This document shows positions 23,697 to 35,940 of a stretch of DNA of 35,940 bases, piece by piece (the first letter of the stretch is position 1; the number at the start of each line of letters is the position of its first letter). The notes beneath the pieces were generated by a model. The model was not told the origin of the DNA, did not search any database, and worked only from the letters and a program-made list of their open reading frames with translations. Source of the DNA: a virus; IMG/VR virus record IMGVR_UViG_3300030103_001064, positions 1-35,940 of that record. One strand, written 5' to 3'. The position numbers and the translations under genes are program-made.

Positions 23697-25970
23697 ATGA
23701 AAGACACAATAAATATCGTTACGTCCTTTAATCCTAAAGGGTGGGAAACTTACGCAAAGAAAATGATTGACTCAGTTGTCAAATATATGGCTGATGATTT
23801 ACATTTAACTGCTTACTATCATGACTTTACTGATGAGCAGATAAAAGAGTTTCCTAAAACAGACAAGATAACATTTAGAAATCTTAATAAGGTAGACGAA
23901 ATGATTACCTATCGTGAAGAAATGAAACTTCATGATGGTACTGAAGGTGGTAAGATGCCTTATAACTGGAGATTAGATGCCATTAAATGGTGTCACAAAG
24001 TGTATGCTCTGACTGACTTCTCCTTCAAGTTGGTAGAAAAGAGTGTACAAGTAGGGTGGGTAGTTTGGTTAGATGCTGATATTATCCTTAGAAAGCCTGT
24101 TAATAAACAAGACTTGTTTGGAATCATTCCCCTAGGTTCTGAACTCGTCCACTTAGGTAGGAAAGATGTGGACTATAGTGAAACATCTTTCATGGCTTTT
24201 AATCTTAATACTGTCCCACCCCTTGATTTACTAGGAGATATGAGAGGTCTTTATAATAGTCATGAAGTTCTTTCATATAGAGAATGGCATGATGGATTTA
24301 TCTTTGAAAGATTATTTAATATCTATGGTGCACATGGTTTAAAGAAACACAGTTTAACACCAGAAGTGAGAGGTTTAGATGCGTTTAATAATTCTCCTTT
24401 GGCAGATTACTTTGAACACTTCAAGGGCAATAGGAAGGATTTGTTATCTAACAAAACCACACCTGATGTCGTTGGTCCAAAGAGGTACAAACAGTTGGCT
24501 GATGTCATCAGACATTACAAGTTTTCAAGAATACTGGAGACAGGTACATGGAATGGTGGTCGTGCTATTGAAATGGCACTGGCAGCTTTTGACAACGTAG
24601 ACAAAGTTTATTATGAAGGTTATGATTTATTTGAAGATGCAGATGAATTTACTGATGCAACTGAAATGAATACTAAACCACATAATCTTTATGAAGCAGT
24701 TAGCAATAGACTAAAAGAATTTAAAACTTTTGTTAAAGAAAAAATGAACAAAGACTTTGAATTTAAATTAGTTAAAGGTGATACTAAAGTAACACTAACA
24801 CAACAAAAAGATTTTGACATAGCTTATCTTGATGGAGGACATAGTTTTGATACTGTTCAACACGATTACAATATGACAAAAGATTTACCTGTTGTTGTGT
24901 TTGACGATTACTTTACTAAAGATGACAAAGGAAAGGAAGTTGTTGATGAACATAAAGGAACGAATAAAGTATTTGATGCCCTTGATAAAAAGCTACGCAA
25001 AAAAGTTCTTCCATCTAGTGACCCAGTGGCAGGTGGTGGTGTTACTCACCTTGCTATCGTTCTTCATAAATCTAGTCTTGATAAACTCCCTGAAAGTTTC
25101 AATCACGTTCCAATAATTGTTAAACCAAAAGACTGTATGCCTACTGATTATATTAGAAACAATATAAAAAATAATGTACAGTCAATTAATAAATGGTTAA
25201 CTAAAGCTAGACCACATGGAGAGGTACTTAACATAGTATCAGGTGGTAGTTCTTTTTTAAATTATAAAGATTATCTTAAATCAACTAAAGATAAAATCAT
25301 GTGTGTTAAACATTCACTACCTATGCTTTTGAAAGAAGGTATAGTTCCTTGGGCATGTAACATACTTGACCCCAGACCTATTGAAGGTACAAGTACACAT
25401 GGGATTGTTCGTAAAGAATTATTTAAAGATATACCTAAAGAGACTATATTCTTTGTATCATCTATGACTGATACCTCAGTTGTAGATTATTTAAAAGATA
25501 AGAGTGCAAAGATAGTGGGTTGGAATGCTTACTCAGATGCTATTGTTGAGAAGAATACAGATAATAAAGTTACTATACCAAAAGAATTAGGTATACCTGA
25601 TGATACAGTTCTATTAACTGGTGGTACTTGTGCAGCTATGAGAGCCATTAGTGTTGGACACACATTAGGATTTAGAAACTTTAAACTATATGGTTTTGAT
25701 TGTTCAATGGATGAGCCTAAAGATAAAGATGCAGTTGATAGTTCAACAGGTAAAGGTAAATACTTACACGTTACTACAAATAATAAGAAGTTCTGGACTA
25801 CAGGTGAACTACTAGCTATGGCACAAGACTGTGAAAAATTATTTCAAAGACAAGATGTTGATATGCATATGGAACTATATGGTGAGGGTACTCTTGTTTC
25901 TGAGTTGTGGAAAACTGGTGGTAGAAAGGAACATCCTAAATATGAAAATACTCTCTTCAATAACGATTAA
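23697..25970 (+). CDS. Three-domain protein: glycosyltransferase, methyltransferase and MptE/DUF115-like
   Basis: 757 residues. Residues 1-about 235 look like a GT-A glycosyltransferase with VVWLDADIILRKP (D-x-D near 123) and an INIVTSFNPKGWETYAK start. About 260-470 is a class I SAM-dependent methyltransferase: RILETGTWNGGRAIEMALA (motif I region, about 277), then DIAYLDGGHSFDTVQHDYN and VVVFDDYF. About 490-757 resembles DUF115/MptE-like proteins: VSGGSSFLNYKDYL, WACNILDPRPIEG, LLTGGTCAAMRAISVGHTLG and LYGFDCSM. Such C-terminal domains occur in glycan-modifying or motility-accessory proteins. The combination suggests sequential sugar transfer and methylation on one substrate. The order is seen directly; substrate is unknown. 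Confidence 0.65.
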   Translation: MKDTINIVTSFNPKGWETYAKKMIDSVVKYMADDLHLTAYYHDFTDEQIKEFPKTDKITFRNLNKVDEMITYREEMKLHDGTEGGKMPYNWRLDAIKWCHKVYALTDFSFKLVEKSVQVGWVVWLDADIILRKPVNKQDLFGIIPLGSELVHLGRKDVDYSETSFMAFNLNTVPPLDLLGDMRGLYNSHEVLSYREWHDGFIFERLFNIYGAHGLKKHSLTPEVRGLDAFNNSPLADYFEHFKGNRKDLLSNKTTPDVVGPKRYKQLADVIRHYKFSRILETGTWNGGRAIEMALAAFDNVDKVYYEGYDLFEDADEFTDATEMNTKPHNLYEAVSNRLKEFKTFVKEKMNKDFEFKLVKGDTKVTLTQQKDFDIAYLDGGHSFDTVQHDYNMTKDLPVVVFDDYFTKDDKGKEVVDEHKGTNKVFDALDKKLRKKVLPSSDPVAGGGVTHLAIVLHKSSLDKLPESFNHVPIIVKPKDCMPTDYIRNNIKNNVQSINKWLTKARPHGEVLNIVSGGSSFLNYKDYLKSTKDKIMCVKHSLPMLLKEGIVPWACNILDPRPIEGTSTHGIVRKELFKDIPKETIFFVSSMTDTSVVDYLKDKSAKIVGWNAYSDAIVEKNTDNKVTIPKELGIPDDTVLLTGGTCAAMRAISVGHTLGFRNFKLYGFDCSMDEPKDKDAVDSSTGKGKYLHVTTNNKKFWTTGELLAMAQDCEKLFQRQDVDMHMELYGEGTLVSELWKTGGRKEHPKYENTLFNND

Positions 25971-26557: not shown

Positions 26558-26929
26558 ATGTTATTACCAATGATTGCACCTATATTAGGTAAAGTAATTG
26601 ATAGAATAATTCCTGATAAAGCTGGTCAAGCAAAGGCTCAATCAGAATTAAACAAGGCACTTGTTACACATTCAGCAGATATAGAAAAAGCTGCTGCATC
26701 TGTGGTCGTTGCTGAAGCTCAAGGTGAAGGTTGGTTACAACGTAATTGGAGACCCCTGACTATGGTATCTTTCTTGATACTTTTATTTATGTATTGGTTT
26801 GGAATACATCCTGAGAATTTATCAGACGCAGTTATTATGAAACTGTTTGATTTATTACAGATTGGTATTGGTGGCTACATCATAAGTAGAGGTGCTGAGA
26901 AAGGAATTAAAACATGGAAGGAGAAATAA
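26558..26929 (+). CDS. Holin (3TM/GTA-type family)
   Basis: 123 residues with the pattern of the 3TM holin family: N-terminal helix MIAPILGKVIDRIIPD, a helical linker (AQSELNKALV), then EAQGEGWLQRNWRPLTM leading to the hydrophobic MVSFLILLFMYWFG, and a C-terminal IGIGGYIISRGAEKGI. It would form inner-membrane holes that release the M15 endolysin encoded about 14 kb upstream. The WLQRNWRPL and GGY...RxAEK signatures are typical. GGGAG precedes the ATG. It is followed after 1 base by pqqA. Confidence 0.85.
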   Translation: MLLPMIAPILGKVIDRIIPDKAGQAKAQSELNKALVTHSADIEKAAASVVVAEAQGEGWLQRNWRPLTMVSFLILLFMYWFGIHPENLSDAVIMKLFDLLQIGIGGYIISRGAEKGIKTWKEK

Positions 26930-26930
26930 T

Positions 26931-27011
26931 ATGACTGCATGGACAAAACCTATTATTGCAGAAATTTCTGTAGGTTTAGAAATCAACTCATATGCTTGTG
27001 CTGAAAAGTAA
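26931..27011 (+). CDS. pqqA: PqqA-like PQQ precursor peptide (26 aa)
   Basis: A 26-codon gene, MTAWTKPIIAEISVGLEINS followed by YACAEK. It matches the PqqA family in length and layout: an AW-x-KP-start, then E-(I/V)-x-VG-(L/M)-E-(I/V)-x-x-Y-x-x-AE. The Glu17 and Tyr21 pair (E-x3-Y) is the pair crosslinked by PqqE to form the cofactor pyrroloquinoline quinone. The ribosome site GGAAGGAG at 8 bases is excellent, so it should be well translated. It begins 1 base after the holin gene. No pqqB, C, D or E is seen, so the host would supply the rest of the pathway. Family knowledge and sequence agree; effect on host PQQ metabolism is inference. Confidence 0.85.
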   Translation: MTAWTKPIIAEISVGLEINSYACAEK

Positions 27012-27122
27012 TAGCATTTATTTTTTGGTGTGAGCCATATGCTTTTTAAGGTATGGCTTTCATCTAGTTTAACTATAACATTATTGCCTAATGATAGGGA
27101 TAATTAACTAAAGGAGAATAAT
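27012..27122 (+). promoter_or_regulatory. Intergenic hairpins after pqqA
   Basis: AGCCATA (27033-27039) pairs with TATGGCT (27052-27058). An alternative stem, AGCAT (27013-27017) with ATGCT (27038-27042) followed by TTTTT, looks like a weak terminator. The two use some of the same bases and exclude each other. No ORF of note until 27123. Confidence 0.4.
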
Positions 27123-27338
27123 ATGATGTTATTGGACAACATGTTCTATAATCATTTTGATTTAATGAGACCAAAAGTAATGGTCGTATCTGATAAAATG
27201 TATCAGGAAGCTCAACAAAAGAAACTACAAGCTAGATTAGATTATCTTGTAGAACAAAAAGAGCATTATGAAAAAGAAATAAAAGAAGTGAAAGACGAAA
27301 TGTCTGAACTAAAGATTGAAAATAAATCTGATAAATAA
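27123..27338 (+). CDS. Coiled-coil hypothetical protein (71 aa)
   Basis: MMLLDNMFYNHFDLMRPKVM, then VVSDKMYQEAQQKKLQARLD and a long E/K-rich coiled coil. The PKVMVVSDxxYxExQxxKxxxRL pattern is one I recall from small proteins in marine cyanophages and other podoviruses, without known function. It is the last rightward gene, directly before the terminator at 27341. A second in-frame Met (27126) is also possible. AAAGGAG precedes it. Confidence 0.7.
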   Translation: MMLLDNMFYNHFDLMRPKVMVVSDKMYQEAQQKKLQARLDYLVEQKEHYEKEIKEVKDEMSELKIENKSDK

Positions 27339-27340
27339 AT

Positions 27341-27383
27341 AAAAAACCCCTAGCTAACTTAATAACTAGGGGTATTTTTTTGT
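27341..27383. terminator. Bidirectional terminator where the two operons converge
   Basis: ACCCCTAG (27346-27353) pairs with CTAGGGGT (27366-27373), 8 bp with a 12-base loop. It is flanked by an A6 run on the left (27341-27346) and T7 (27375-27381) on the right, so it can stop transcription from both sides. Confidence 0.9.
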
Positions 27384-27400
27384 CCAATTTTCACAGTTGG

Positions 27401-31554: not shown

Positions 31555-34434
31555 TTATTTTCTTTTAATATCACCCTGAGTTCCAGGGAATAATTTAACT
31601 GTTTTATTAAAGAACCCTCTTTCTTCTAATAATCCTTGATTAAATAAATTTTGATAATGTTTTTGTTTTGCTCTCTCAATTAATACCTCATTAGATTCTT
31701 CAGGATTTTTATTTTTTTCATCTAAATATAAAGATTGTATAACAGCTGCATCAGACTGACTTGGAACATATATTGCATTTTTACCAAAGGCTCCTCTTGT
31801 TTGTCCTTTTTCATTACTAACTTTTACATATTTATTTAAATCAACATTACTTAATGCAAATGCACCTACTATTTCAGGGTCCATTGTGGTAGCAGATTTT
31901 TGTAATAGTTTTAATTTATCTTGAGAAATATCTGCTAATTTTAATAGTCTTTCTTGAGTTAATTTATTAGTTTCTGCTTGTGCTTCTGCAGATTCTCTTT
32001 TTATTTCAAGACCTTCTTCTTGTAAACCAATACCAATAGCTTGTGCTGCTCTATCTAATGTTTTATCTTCTGCTGCTAATTCTCTATCTTCAAGTCTTTC
32101 AGTTGCTGCTCTTCTTTCTTTAGCAATTTGTGAAGCATCTTTACCATAAGTTGTTAATGCCTTTTGAAGTGCATTAGGTCCACCTGCCATGTATTGAAGA
32201 CTGGCATTAAAGATTGCAAAACCTAATCTCTTATCATATTCTTCTTTAGTTTCATCTTTTCTTTTTTGTATTTTATCTCTTAAATTTTTAGACTGTTCAG
32301 ATACTAATTGTCTAAAGTTATCACTTGCAGATAATTCATTTTTTATCTTTTCTTTTTGTTCTTGACCTAACTCACCACCTGTATTCTCATCTAAAACATT
32401 ATCCATTGTTTTAGAAGATAAAACATTTTCAGTTTCTTTATTTATTTGTTTTTGTTCTGTTGTTAATTCTCCTTTTTTTGGAATAGGTTTACTAGGTCCT
32501 GTTCCTACTGTAACTATCTCTCCAGGTTCTCCAGGTAAATCTACAGTTCCATCTTCTTTTAGTTCTACACCTGGGAATTTTTTAGGAGTGCTTGATTTTA
32601 AAATTTCTGGTCCCTTTCCTAAAATTTTATCTACATCTTCTTGTCCCATTAAAGAAAGTTCTCCTGTAGTAAAAGCAAACTTTGAAGGAAATTCTTGTTT
32701 TAATTCTTCAATAGATTTAGTAGATAATTCAGGATTTTCTTTTATTAAAGATTCAGCTTTTATTTTTTCTCTTTGTTTTATTCTTTCATCAAATGGTTTA
32801 TTTAATTTTTTATTTTCCTCATCTGTTAAAGAAACACCTATACCATATTCAGGTGTTGTTTGTATATTTGAAAAAGTTTCTGTATCAAAAGAACCTATTA
32901 ATTTTTTAAATTTATCAAGAAGTCCTTCTTCTTTATCTTTTGGAAATGTTGGTTGAACTTGTGGTAATGTTGACGGAAAAGATAATGTATTTGACATAGG
33001 ATTTGACATAGGACCAGCACCTAATGTAAACTGTGGATTTGTTGAACCTGCTTGTAATTTAACAACACTCTGTAAACCAGTTGATTCATTACCTGCTATT
33101 TCCATCATCATATCTTTTATGTCATCCATTTCTTTAGCTTTATCTTTTTGAGTTCCCTCAATCATAGCCATTAACATTTCAGTGTATTCTTTATTATCAC
33201 CTTTAGATATTCTTTTACCTTCTTTTTTCTTTATAACACCTTTACCCATAAGTATATCTTTTTGTGTAACTTTACCATCACCACTTAAATCAGGGAAAGT
33301 TGACCCTCCTTCTGCAAATAACTTAGGTATCTGTCCTGCAATACCTAGACCTGCCAAAGCACCAGCACCACCAATTAATTGTTGACTTAATGATGGTTGT
33401 GGTAAAATTGCCTGTTGAGTTTGTGTGGTTGTTGGTGAGATTGGGAAACCTCTAATGATAGATTGATACTGCTGTAGACTTGCTTCAGGATAAGTCTGTT
33501 CTTCTCTAAACTGTTGGAATCCTAAGTCTAATGCTTTTTGTTGTTGTTGTCTTTGTTGTTCACCTACACCTGATAATGCACCTAGTTCCTTCATAGCTGA
33601 AGCCTGTTGAGCAGTACCTAGTCCTGCCATCTGTTGACCAGCACCCATTTGTCTTTGCCTTAAATTAGCAAGACCTTGTTGTGCTTGTTGAAAAGCAGCT
33701 TGTGAACCTGTGGCTTGTATGTCACCAAGTTGTTGTTGTAAATTTCTTTCTAACTCAGACTGCATTAATGCTTCTCGTGAACCACCAAAACCACCTGCAG
33801 CTACACCTTGAGCAGCAAGTTGTTGTCTTCTTGCTTCAGCACCACGTTCAGCTTCTCTCTTTTGTATGTCAACAACATTTTGCATAAATGGTGACATACG
33901 TGCCTGTATAGCAGGTGCTGTATCTTCTAATGCACTAGCAGCAGTTAAACCTCTAGCTATATCAAATGAAGGTTGAGATGCACCTACAAGTGAAGTGATA
34001 CCTGCTTGTGCTGCTTTTTCTTCAGGAGTAAACGCAGCAATACGTGGACCTGGATAAACTGGATAACCAGTAGCTTGTCTTGCTTCTTCTTGAGCCTGTG
34101 CTCTTTCAAGAATATCAGTAATATAAGGACGTATCTCAGGAGGAAACTCTTCCTTCGTTACAGTTTGAGTGGTAGTTCCACCACCTCCACCACCACCACC
34201 TTTACTACCACCACCACCATATTGTCTTAGACCTGTGGTTTTATTGATAGTACCTGAACCACCAACTGACCTTAATAGTTTAGCTTCATATGAATTAATA
34301 TGTGCTAATTCAGTATCACCATCTTCACCTTGTGACGCAATATCACAAGTAAGTCTATCTAATAACCAGACTTTAAATTTAATTGGTAATACTTTTTCTA
34401 TTAAAAAATTAGAAATGTGTTTCAAAAGTGACAT
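31555..34434 (-). CDS. Large virion protein with polyGly and EF-hand-like motif, 959 aa
   Basis: Residues about 74-90 form a Gly-rich stretch including eight consecutive Gly. About 120-320 is Gln/Ala-rich helical sequence (QQLAAQGVAAGGFGGSREAL, LANLRQRQMGAGQQM) with polyGln from CAA repeats. About 380-396 reads PDLSGDGKVTQKDILMG, a DxSGDGxVTxxD calcium-loop (EF-hand/dockerin type). The C-terminal part (about 640-950) is charged helix. It likely forms part of the internal core or the tail-tip. Lacks a signal peptide. AAGTGACAT region precedes the start near the GNAT-like gene. Stop adjoins the ATG of the 1202-residue gene. Confidence 0.7.
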   Translation of the reverse strand: MSLLKHISNFLIEKVLPIKFKVWLLDRLTCDIASQGEDGDTELAHINSYEAKLLRSVGGSGTINKTTGLRQYGGGGSKGGGGGGGGTTTQTVTKEEFPPEIRPYITDILERAQAQEEARQATGYPVYPGPRIAAFTPEEKAAQAGITSLVGASQPSFDIARGLTAASALEDTAPAIQARMSPFMQNVVDIQKREAERGAEARRQQLAAQGVAAGGFGGSREALMQSELERNLQQQLGDIQATGSQAAFQQAQQGLANLRQRQMGAGQQMAGLGTAQQASAMKELGALSGVGEQQRQQQQKALDLGFQQFREEQTYPEASLQQYQSIIRGFPISPTTTQTQQAILPQPSLSQQLIGGAGALAGLGIAGQIPKLFAEGGSTFPDLSGDGKVTQKDILMGKGVIKKKEGKRISKGDNKEYTEMLMAMIEGTQKDKAKEMDDIKDMMMEIAGNESTGLQSVVKLQAGSTNPQFTLGAGPMSNPMSNTLSFPSTLPQVQPTFPKDKEEGLLDKFKKLIGSFDTETFSNIQTTPEYGIGVSLTDEENKKLNKPFDERIKQREKIKAESLIKENPELSTKSIEELKQEFPSKFAFTTGELSLMGQEDVDKILGKGPEILKSSTPKKFPGVELKEDGTVDLPGEPGEIVTVGTGPSKPIPKKGELTTEQKQINKETENVLSSKTMDNVLDENTGGELGQEQKEKIKNELSASDNFRQLVSEQSKNLRDKIQKRKDETKEEYDKRLGFAIFNASLQYMAGGPNALQKALTTYGKDASQIAKERRAATERLEDRELAAEDKTLDRAAQAIGIGLQEEGLEIKRESAEAQAETNKLTQERLLKLADISQDKLKLLQKSATTMDPEIVGAFALSNVDLNKYVKVSNEKGQTRGAFGKNAIYVPSQSDAAVIQSLYLDEKNKNPEESNEVLIERAKQKHYQNLFNQGLLEERGFFNKTVKLFPGTQGDIKRK

Positions 34435-34825
34435 AGCTTTCCTTATACTTTACATGTTGTTTAAATATTTTTCTCCATCCTGGTCTACCCATGACTTCAA
34501 CTCCTGTACAACCTTTTTCCTTTGCGTACTCCATGATTGTTTTAATTCCTTCTCCTGCCCATTTATTCATATTCTTACCACCACATAAAACAACTGTCAT
34601 CATTGTCTTAGCAGGATATATAGATTTTTGTGTAACAATAATTGCTTCAATATCTTTTACAGTTTTAAATACAATAAATAAATCCATCATACCTTGTTGT
34701 AAAAGATACTTAGTGGTATTAACTGTATGTCTACCACCTGAGTAAGAAACTGATTTTTTAACTAATGGTTTTATTTTATCCCAAAATAATTCTACACCTA
34801 TGGGTTCTACAGGAACGACTTTCAT
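34409..34825 (-). CDS. GNAT-fold virion protein (T7 gp13-like)
   Basis: 138 residues: MKVVPVEPIGVELFWDKIKP, then LLQQGMMDLFIVFKTVKDIE, MMTVVLCGGKNMNKWAGEG, MEYAKEKGCTGVEVMGRPGW and RKIFKQHV. This is the acyltransferase-like layout of T7 internal virion protein gp13 and its marine relatives (VxxxGGxxxxxW ... AxxxGCxxxxxxGRxGWxRxL). It is thought to be needed for virion assembly; enzyme activity is not shown. It sits beside the core proteins, overlapping the 959-residue gene by 26 bases, as expected for an internal-core operon. Confidence 0.75.
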   Translation of the reverse strand: MKVVPVEPIGVELFWDKIKPLVKKSVSYSGGRHTVNTTKYLLQQGMMDLFIVFKTVKDIEAIIVTQKSIYPAKTMMTVVLCGGKNMNKWAGEGIKTIMEYAKEKGCTGVEVMGRPGWRKIFKQHVKYKESYVTFETHF

Positions 34826-34833
34826 TTTAACTC

Positions 34834-35940
34834 CTATTCAATTTGGTTAATCTGTCTTTCTCTCCCCATAACTTTTTTTCTAACATCAGTTAAAAATCCA
34901 TCTAACTTATCTGCACCTGCATTAGATGAACCATTACCTAAAGCTGATACAACATCAGCAGGTAACACATATTCATCTCTACTTAATAAAGCAGGTTGTT
35001 TTCCTTCAATACTAAATGGTATTTCATCTGACATACCATCACCTTTACCCATAACTCTTCCTTCAAAAGGTCTTTGTTTTCCCATTGCAATCTGTTGTAG
35101 ATTTGACATTGGATTAACTTTAACGTCATCCATCATACCACCTTCAGCAGCAGCTTTAATCATTCCTTCAATTGAAACGTCACCATCTGTTTGTTCAGCT
35201 AACTCTTCCATACCTTCAGTAATTGAATCAAGTGCGTCTAACATACCACCCTTCTTAGCTAGTAATGAACCACTTAAATTACCTGTCTCAGCAGGTGAAT
35301 ATTTAGGGTCAGTAAATTGTAATGGTGGTGCCTGTCCTGTTTGTGAAGCTAGAATTTGTGATGCAGATAAAGGTGCTGTTCTAGTATTCATTGCAAAGTT
35401 TCTGTTCTCAGCAAGTACAGGTTCTCTAGCACTATCATCAGTAGCAAAACCTGTAGCTTCAGCATATTCAGGTGTACGTGTTAAATCTGAAATAACACCT
35501 GAAGCTAGTCCTCTTATTGCAGTCTCAGGTGTCGCTAAATTTTTCATTGTTGCTGTACCTATATTTTTTAAACCCTCTGTAGTTGTCATTCCACTAAGAA
35601 CTTGACCAGGTGTATAAGAACCAGCTAATAAATTTTTTACAGTTGGTGTTGTAACATTTAAACCCTCTCTAACAACAGATTGACTAACACCTTTTGCCAA
35701 TTGCTCTGGAGCCATAGCATTAAAAGCATTAGTAGCTGCACCTGCTGTTGTAGTAAATGGATTTTGACCTCCAAGTTGAGCCATTTTAGAAACATTACCT
35801 GCACCTTTTTGTAAACCTTCTTTAAAACTTGTTTGACCTGCACTTAATGCTGCATCATCTGCACCACCAAACATACCTTTAAATAATTTACCACCTACTT
35901 TACCTAAACCATAACTTAATAAACCTGAAGTAATACCTGT
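34834..35940 (-). CDS. Virion protein, C-terminal part (cut by window end)
   Basis: The frame is open from the window end (no stop between 35940 and the first Met at 35874), so the gene probably begins outside. The visible part is Gly/Ala-rich with short hydrophobic helices, then PAETGNLSGSLLAKKGGMLD, EGMIKAAAEGGMMDDVKV and a C-terminal GMSDEIPFSIEGKQPALLSR followed by LPADVVSALGNGSSNAGAD. The last motif (SxDExVxPADVVxALGNGSSxAGAxxL) is one I recall from tail-tip or core proteins of marine podoviruses. It ends at IE, 8 bases before the GNAT-like gene, and probably belongs to the same core operon. Confidence 0.65.
   Translation of the reverse strand, partial: TGITSGLLSYGLGKVGGKLFKGMFGGADDAALSAGQTSFKEGLQKGAGNVSKMAQLGGQNPFTTTAGAATNAFNAMAPEQLAKGVSQSVVREGLNVTTPTVKNLLAGSYTPGQVLSGMTTTEGLKNIGTATMKNLATPETAIRGLASGVISDLTRTPEYAEATGFATDDSAREPVLAENRNFAMNTRTAPLSASQILASQTGQAPPLQFTDPKYSPAETGNLSGSLLAKKGGMLDALDSITEGMEELAEQTDGDVSIEGMIKAAAEGGMMDDVKVNPMSNLQQIAMGKQRPFEGRVMGKGDGMSDEIPFSIEGKQPALLSRDEYVLPADVVSALGNGSSNAGADKLDGFLTDVRKKVMGRERQINQIE

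Follow-up and report, generated by a model that had tools for sequence, protein, structure and literature searches.

The window, the whole stretch of 35,940 nucleotides analyzed here, is a bona fide marine phage genome. Genes for the portal protein, the large and small terminase subunits, a DNA polymerase, a primase/helicase, an RNR and a holin surround a short ORF that was identified as pqqA. The closest cultured terminases are those of pelagiphages (39-40%). The portal gene is truncated by the contig end, and the 35.9-kb contig is probably a fragment, since relatives reach about 57 kb. On the 5' side of the holin gene, positions 23697-25970 encode a 757-aa protein with methyltransferase and MptE-like (PseD/flagellin-modification-like) domains. 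The features of the holin-pqqA unit are as follows.

26558..26929, + strand: holin gene, 3-TM GTA-type, immediately 5' of pqqA (PF11351, 39.2 bits; phrog_3427, 5.6e-25)
26918..26923, + strand: Shine-Dalgarno AAGGAG of pqqA, within the final holin codons (7-nt spacer)
26931..27011, + strand: pqqA, 26 aa PQQ precursor peptide (ORF, PF08042 and TIGR02107 matches, kept in relatives)
26979-26981, + strand: predicted cross-link residue Glu17 of the pqqA product
26991-26993, + strand: predicted cross-link residue Tyr21 of the pqqA product
27027..27064, + strand: hairpin directly 3' of pqqA, possible mRNA 3'-end/processing element (ViennaRNA fold, alignment)
27123..27338, + strand: 71-aa ORF, coiled-coil-like, next gene of the cassette
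27339..27384, + strand: terminator-like hairpin ACCCCTAG...CTAGGGGT with a T run, closing the holin-pqqA unit (ViennaRNA fold, alignment)

The pqqA ORF extends from ATG 26931 to TAA 27011 and encodes the peptide MTAWTKPIIAEISVGLEINSYACAEK in 26 codons. An ORF of this length with a good ribosome site, encoding a PqqA-like peptide right after the holin gene, had been proposed from the letters of the sequence, and the proposal was borne out by AAGGAG with its 7-nt spacer, by an ATG that begins 2 nt past the holin stop and by the profile searches. The peptide exceeds the curated cut-offs of both Pfam PF08042 (PqqA; E = 2.8e-8, 34 bits against 21.1) and the NCBIfam equivalog TIGR02107 (E = 6.7e-10, 38.6 bits against 20), with profile positions 1-21 of the latter covering peptide residues 4-24. 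No sequence match to the peptide was found in the PDB. Bacterial members of PF08042/TIGR02107 share with the phage peptide the length, the W-x2-P leader, the E-I-x-V-G-L-E-I-N-S-Y core and the Glu-x3-Tyr pair. A PqqA gene is typically a small ORF of about 22-30 aa that stands by itself and has a ribosome site of its own, and the phage ORF takes this form. It differs from the pqqA of bacterial operons in standing alone beside a phage holin gene; pqqB-E, a usual though optional feature of the neighborhood, are found nearby neither in the window nor in its relatives. Their lack is no strict bar to PqqA identity, because orphan pqqA copies occur in bacteria. Judged by its sequence, the ORF is near certain to be a real, intact pqqA.

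Relatives of the locus were fetched from IMG/VR by the holin alone and not by the peptide, and 25 loci with a holin identity of at least 86% span the junction. A search for homologues at the same position had been suggested as a check, and a complete pqqA lies there in 23 of the 25. In one of the other two (L018) the contig end falls inside pqqA. In the second (L022, from the near-complete 56.7-kb record G012) the gene is cleanly absent, and a short linker before the conserved terminator takes the place of pqqA and the next ORF; the gene is therefore an optional cassette. The TIGR02107 cut-off was passed in 14 of 15 phage records tested, the exception being the record of L022. The Shine-Dalgarno sequence is also present in the aligned relatives, as AAGGAA in the L021/L024-L026 clade. 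The 71-aa ORF, for which no Pfam match above cut-off was obtained, is missing in L020-L022 and L024-L026, and among the aligned relatives the hairpin at 27027..27064 occurs only in those that retain this ORF. The terminator-like hairpin at 27339..27384 is kept in all 10 aligned sequences, including those without pqqA. L021 (10069-10467, - strand) and about 20 relatives carry a gene for a 133-aa IscU/NifU-like Fe-S scaffold on the 3' side of the cassette. This protein was considered as a helper of PqqE and rejected; its gene lies on the opposite strand, persists in L022 although pqqA is gone there, and could not be located in the window.

Glu17-x3-Tyr21 is invariant in the window and the 23 complete holin-anchored relatives; loss of the pair in relatives had been named as the sign of a mistaken assignment. 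Among 13 haplotypes, core codons 11-26 gave a pN of 0 and a pS of 0.21, while pN/pS for leader codons 1-11 was 1.1. At least seven changes have occurred in the core and 7/7 are synonymous, which for an unconstrained sequence has a probability of about 1.5e-4 when p_syn is set to 0.285 and the changes are taken as independent. The PqqA core is under purifying selection. The phage pqqA is an auxiliary metabolic gene in that it is a homologue of a metabolic gene of the host and is retained by selection.

The partner genes of the pathway were searched for using HIMB59-order proteins as queries. PqqB-E and the PQQ dehydrogenase were absent from the window and from 286 viral loci, and the same queries matched 20 to 64 bacterial loci. 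None of these proteins was found in the 57-kb relative G009, in keeping with the original prediction that the phage supplies the precursor only. Among 35 viral records searched whole, PqqE exceeded the cut-off in none and the PQQ dehydrogenase in one (G430, 72 kb). That record, which contains locus L330, encodes a PQQ-dependent alcohol dehydrogenase at 34049-35731 (608 bits with neighbors) and also pqqA, like the Baikal phages described below.

The nearest bacterial PqqAs, among the matches listed in a DNA-pattern scan, come from AT-rich marine alphaproteobacteria, for example MAWTKPIISEISVGLEINSYACAEK. The 21 nearest-PqqA genomes examined all belong to one GTDB order, which includes MED-G10, labeled HIMB59. 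When 385 genomes evenly drawn from the Alphaproteobacteria were compared, the best 11 PqqA matches (88-96% identity) were all from this order, and two PqqA copies in MED657 (G015) match the phage peptide with 96% identity over 24 residues. At the DNA level the closest genome copy of pqqA is 86% identical (L053) and most others are about 82-83% identical; transfer from a known genome is therefore not recent. The phage terminase had no match in 32 genomes searched from the order, so the host assignment is drawn from PqqA similarity only. The phage host is probably a HIMB59-like alphaproteobacterium. To our knowledge there is no phage isolate for HIMB59-like cells, and none appeared among the literature titles searched.

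The candidate hosts have the pqq pathway that the original prediction called for, namely pqqABCDE with a PQQ-dependent methanol dehydrogenase. The operon order is pqqA-B-C-D-E, and sampled proteins of the order scored 388 (PqqB), 345 (PqqC), 85 (PqqD) and 573 (PqqE) bits. The cut-offs for PqqE and PqqC were passed by 15/21 HIMB59-order genomes and that for the PQQ alcohol dehydrogenase by 14/21; the genomes that fell short may be incomplete assemblies. The dehydrogenase near the pqq operon is XoxF-like (874 bits to 6oc5). The streamlined genomes of the order (G015-G035, 0.9-2.0 Mb) carry 1-5 pqqA copies each, many of them orphans outside the pqqABCDE operon.

IMG/VR was also scanned with DNA patterns for the alpha-type and the beta/gamma-type core, each of which returned at least 120 viral stretches; the patterns demand Glu and Tyr and therefore give no evidence on conservation of that pair. 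All 199 peptides examined (80 alpha-type and 119 beta/gamma-type) are encoded by stand-alone short PqqA ORFs, nearly all preceded by a purine-rich ribosome site. The alpha-type viral loci fall into five or more groups that share genes, in which the neighbors of pqqA are portal/terminase/GroES genes, exonuclease/helicase-loader genes, the holin gene, or others. A stand-alone pqqA, MWTKPTAQEMRFGFEITMYVMNR, is also found in a record of jumbo-phage size (L314, G427, 356 kb). Two loci filed as bacterial, L052 (Maricaulis IN14) and L109 (Flavobacteriaceae SAT25), have a pqqA and neighbors that both resemble those of the phage loci and are probably misbinned phage contigs.

A search of INPHARED with the beta/gamma-type peptide itself recovered nine cultured phages of Methylophilales/Methylophilaceae: Venkman, P19250A, MEP301, MEP401, MEP402 and four Melnitz genomes. 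The peptide with its E-x3-Y pair is intact in 6/6 of the genomes read out, one of the four Melnitz genomes being included. The gene had been expected to escape gene finders for its size, and it is unannotated in the cultured records examined (L411-L416; Venkman, P19250A, MEP301, MEP402, MEP401 and Melnitz-1), because it is shorter than gene-finder length limits. In Melnitz-1 a hypothetical ORF on the opposite strand is annotated across pqqA, just before tRNA-Leu. The papers on Venkman, MEP301, MEP401/402 and Melnitz leave the pqqA gene unmentioned. No INPHARED phage matched the alpha-type peptide, so Pelagibacter and Roseobacter phages provide no more than a loose negative comparison. Matches to "Acinetobacter phage MD-2021a" were excluded, as the DNA is a bacterial pqq operon; the record (CAKLQF020000010.1, L418) holds ppk and the pqq operon and looks bacterial, filed as phage.

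A phage pqqA has been reported before. The Lake Baikal phage population VP_266, described in 2020, encodes PqqA, and its authors proposed enhanced methanol oxidation (PMC7678222). Like the present phage, VP_266 has PqqA on the phage contig of a methylotroph, but it is T4-like, is assigned to a Methylophilaceae host and also carries a methanol dehydrogenase (PMC7678222), whereas the present phage is of another lineage, has a HIMB59-type peptide and has no PQQ enzyme that was found. The OM43/LD28 phages Venkman, P19250A, MEP301, MEP401, MEP402 and Melnitz likewise have a stand-alone pqqA with a ribosome site; they differ in the beta/gamma-type peptide (MWTKPxATEMRFGFEVTMYVMNK-like) and in unrelated gene neighborhoods. 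Viral contigs with pqqA/pqqE/pqqD are listed under phosphate solubilization for reservoir sediment, with no peptide-level analysis in the available portions of the source (PMC13188868). Membership in PqqA and the kind of auxiliary metabolic gene are thus not new. Novel, as far as the literature searched shows, are the HIMB59-type lineage, the finding of purifying selection, the supply of the precursor without its partner genes, the spread across phages and the presence of an overlooked pqqA in cultured phages of methylotrophs.

PqqA serves as the template for PQQ, at a cost of one peptide per PQQ molecule; the peptide is cross-linked by PqqD/PqqE and then acted on by a protease, PqqB and PqqC. 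We consider it likely that the window carries a functional pqqA from a HIMB59-like host, selected as a substrate-supply auxiliary metabolic gene that feeds the host PqqBCDE and sustains methanol oxidation in infection. The gene would probably be translated from the holin-bearing mRNA. Host PqqD would bind the phage peptide, host PqqE would cross-link Glu17 to Tyr21, and the host protease, PqqB and PqqC would complete the cofactor. Because one PqqA is spent per PQQ, the extra template would raise or maintain PQQ as host transcription falls, and the PQQ/lanthanide methanol dehydrogenase (XoxF) and electron flow would stay running and power phage replication. We infer that the phage PqqA is expressed and processed and that the host benefits from it.

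An extract of G. oxydans turns added PqqA into PQQ, according to PMC9851590, which cites Wang et al. 2021, and a methylotroph strain with five pqqA copies is on record (PMC9851590). The multiple pqqA copies in methylotrophs and in HIMB59-order genomes are consistent with a demand for template. In Acetobacter, overexpression of pqqAB raised PQQ by 29% versus eightfold for pqqABCDE (PMC7936290), and PqqA therefore need not be the limiting factor. The evidence for PqqA as the limiting factor is mixed. It also counts against supply of substrate by the phage that the near-complete relative L022 does without pqqA and that HIMB59-order genomes already have 1-5 copies. The supply of PqqA put forward in the original prediction is supported overall; a missing profile hit, loss of the E-x3-Y pair in close relatives and hosts lacking any pqq pathway had each been set out as grounds for abandoning it, and none of the three appeared.

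Three other explanations were weighed. The peptide could be processed as PqqA with a benefit other than methanol oxidation, PQQ serving as an antioxidant, a signal or the cofactor of another dehydrogenase. Alphaproteobacteria in general do have PQQ dehydrogenases beyond the methanol type, but the XoxF-like protein beside the pqq operon is the one candidate-host protein that exceeds the TIGR03075 cut-off, and every cultured phage with pqqA infects a methylotroph, which makes a benefit of this kind improbable. Less probable still is a decoy or competitor that occupies PqqD/PqqE or the protease and lowers host PQQ or another radical-SAM process. PqqD could be titrated by a small peptide produced in quantity from a late operon, and the leader part varies freely. 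Loss or replacement of Glu or Tyr would be expected of a decoy, yet the cross-link pair and the entire core are identical to those of the host and under strict purifying selection. That pqqA was captured along with adjoining host DNA and is functionless in the phage is very improbable, even though L022 lost it with no other visible damage, given that 23 copies are intact and differ in the core by synonymous changes alone, that the gene occurs in many different phage contexts with a ribosome site nearly always present, and that its flanks are free of host pqq genes.

With supply of substrate as the favored role, phages of methanol-oxidizing bacteria seem to provide their hosts with a cofactor precursor. 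Auxiliary metabolic genes are mostly enzymes, and with pqqA a phage would supply a consumable, a ribosomal peptide spent once per cofactor. We lean slightly toward a wider proposal, that pqqA, acquired alone and repeatedly by unrelated phages of PQQ/lanthanide methanol oxidizers with alpha and beta/gamma hosts, is a near-universal and overlooked hallmark of these phages and a general means of viral control over marine and freshwater methanol oxidation. The alpha-type pqqA may serve as a host marker, as phages bearing it probably infect HIMB59-like cells, and the cultured methylotroph phages are laboratory systems where the role of pqqA is testable at once. If the model is correct, it would tie viruses to the cycling of methanol and lanthanides in lakes and the ocean.
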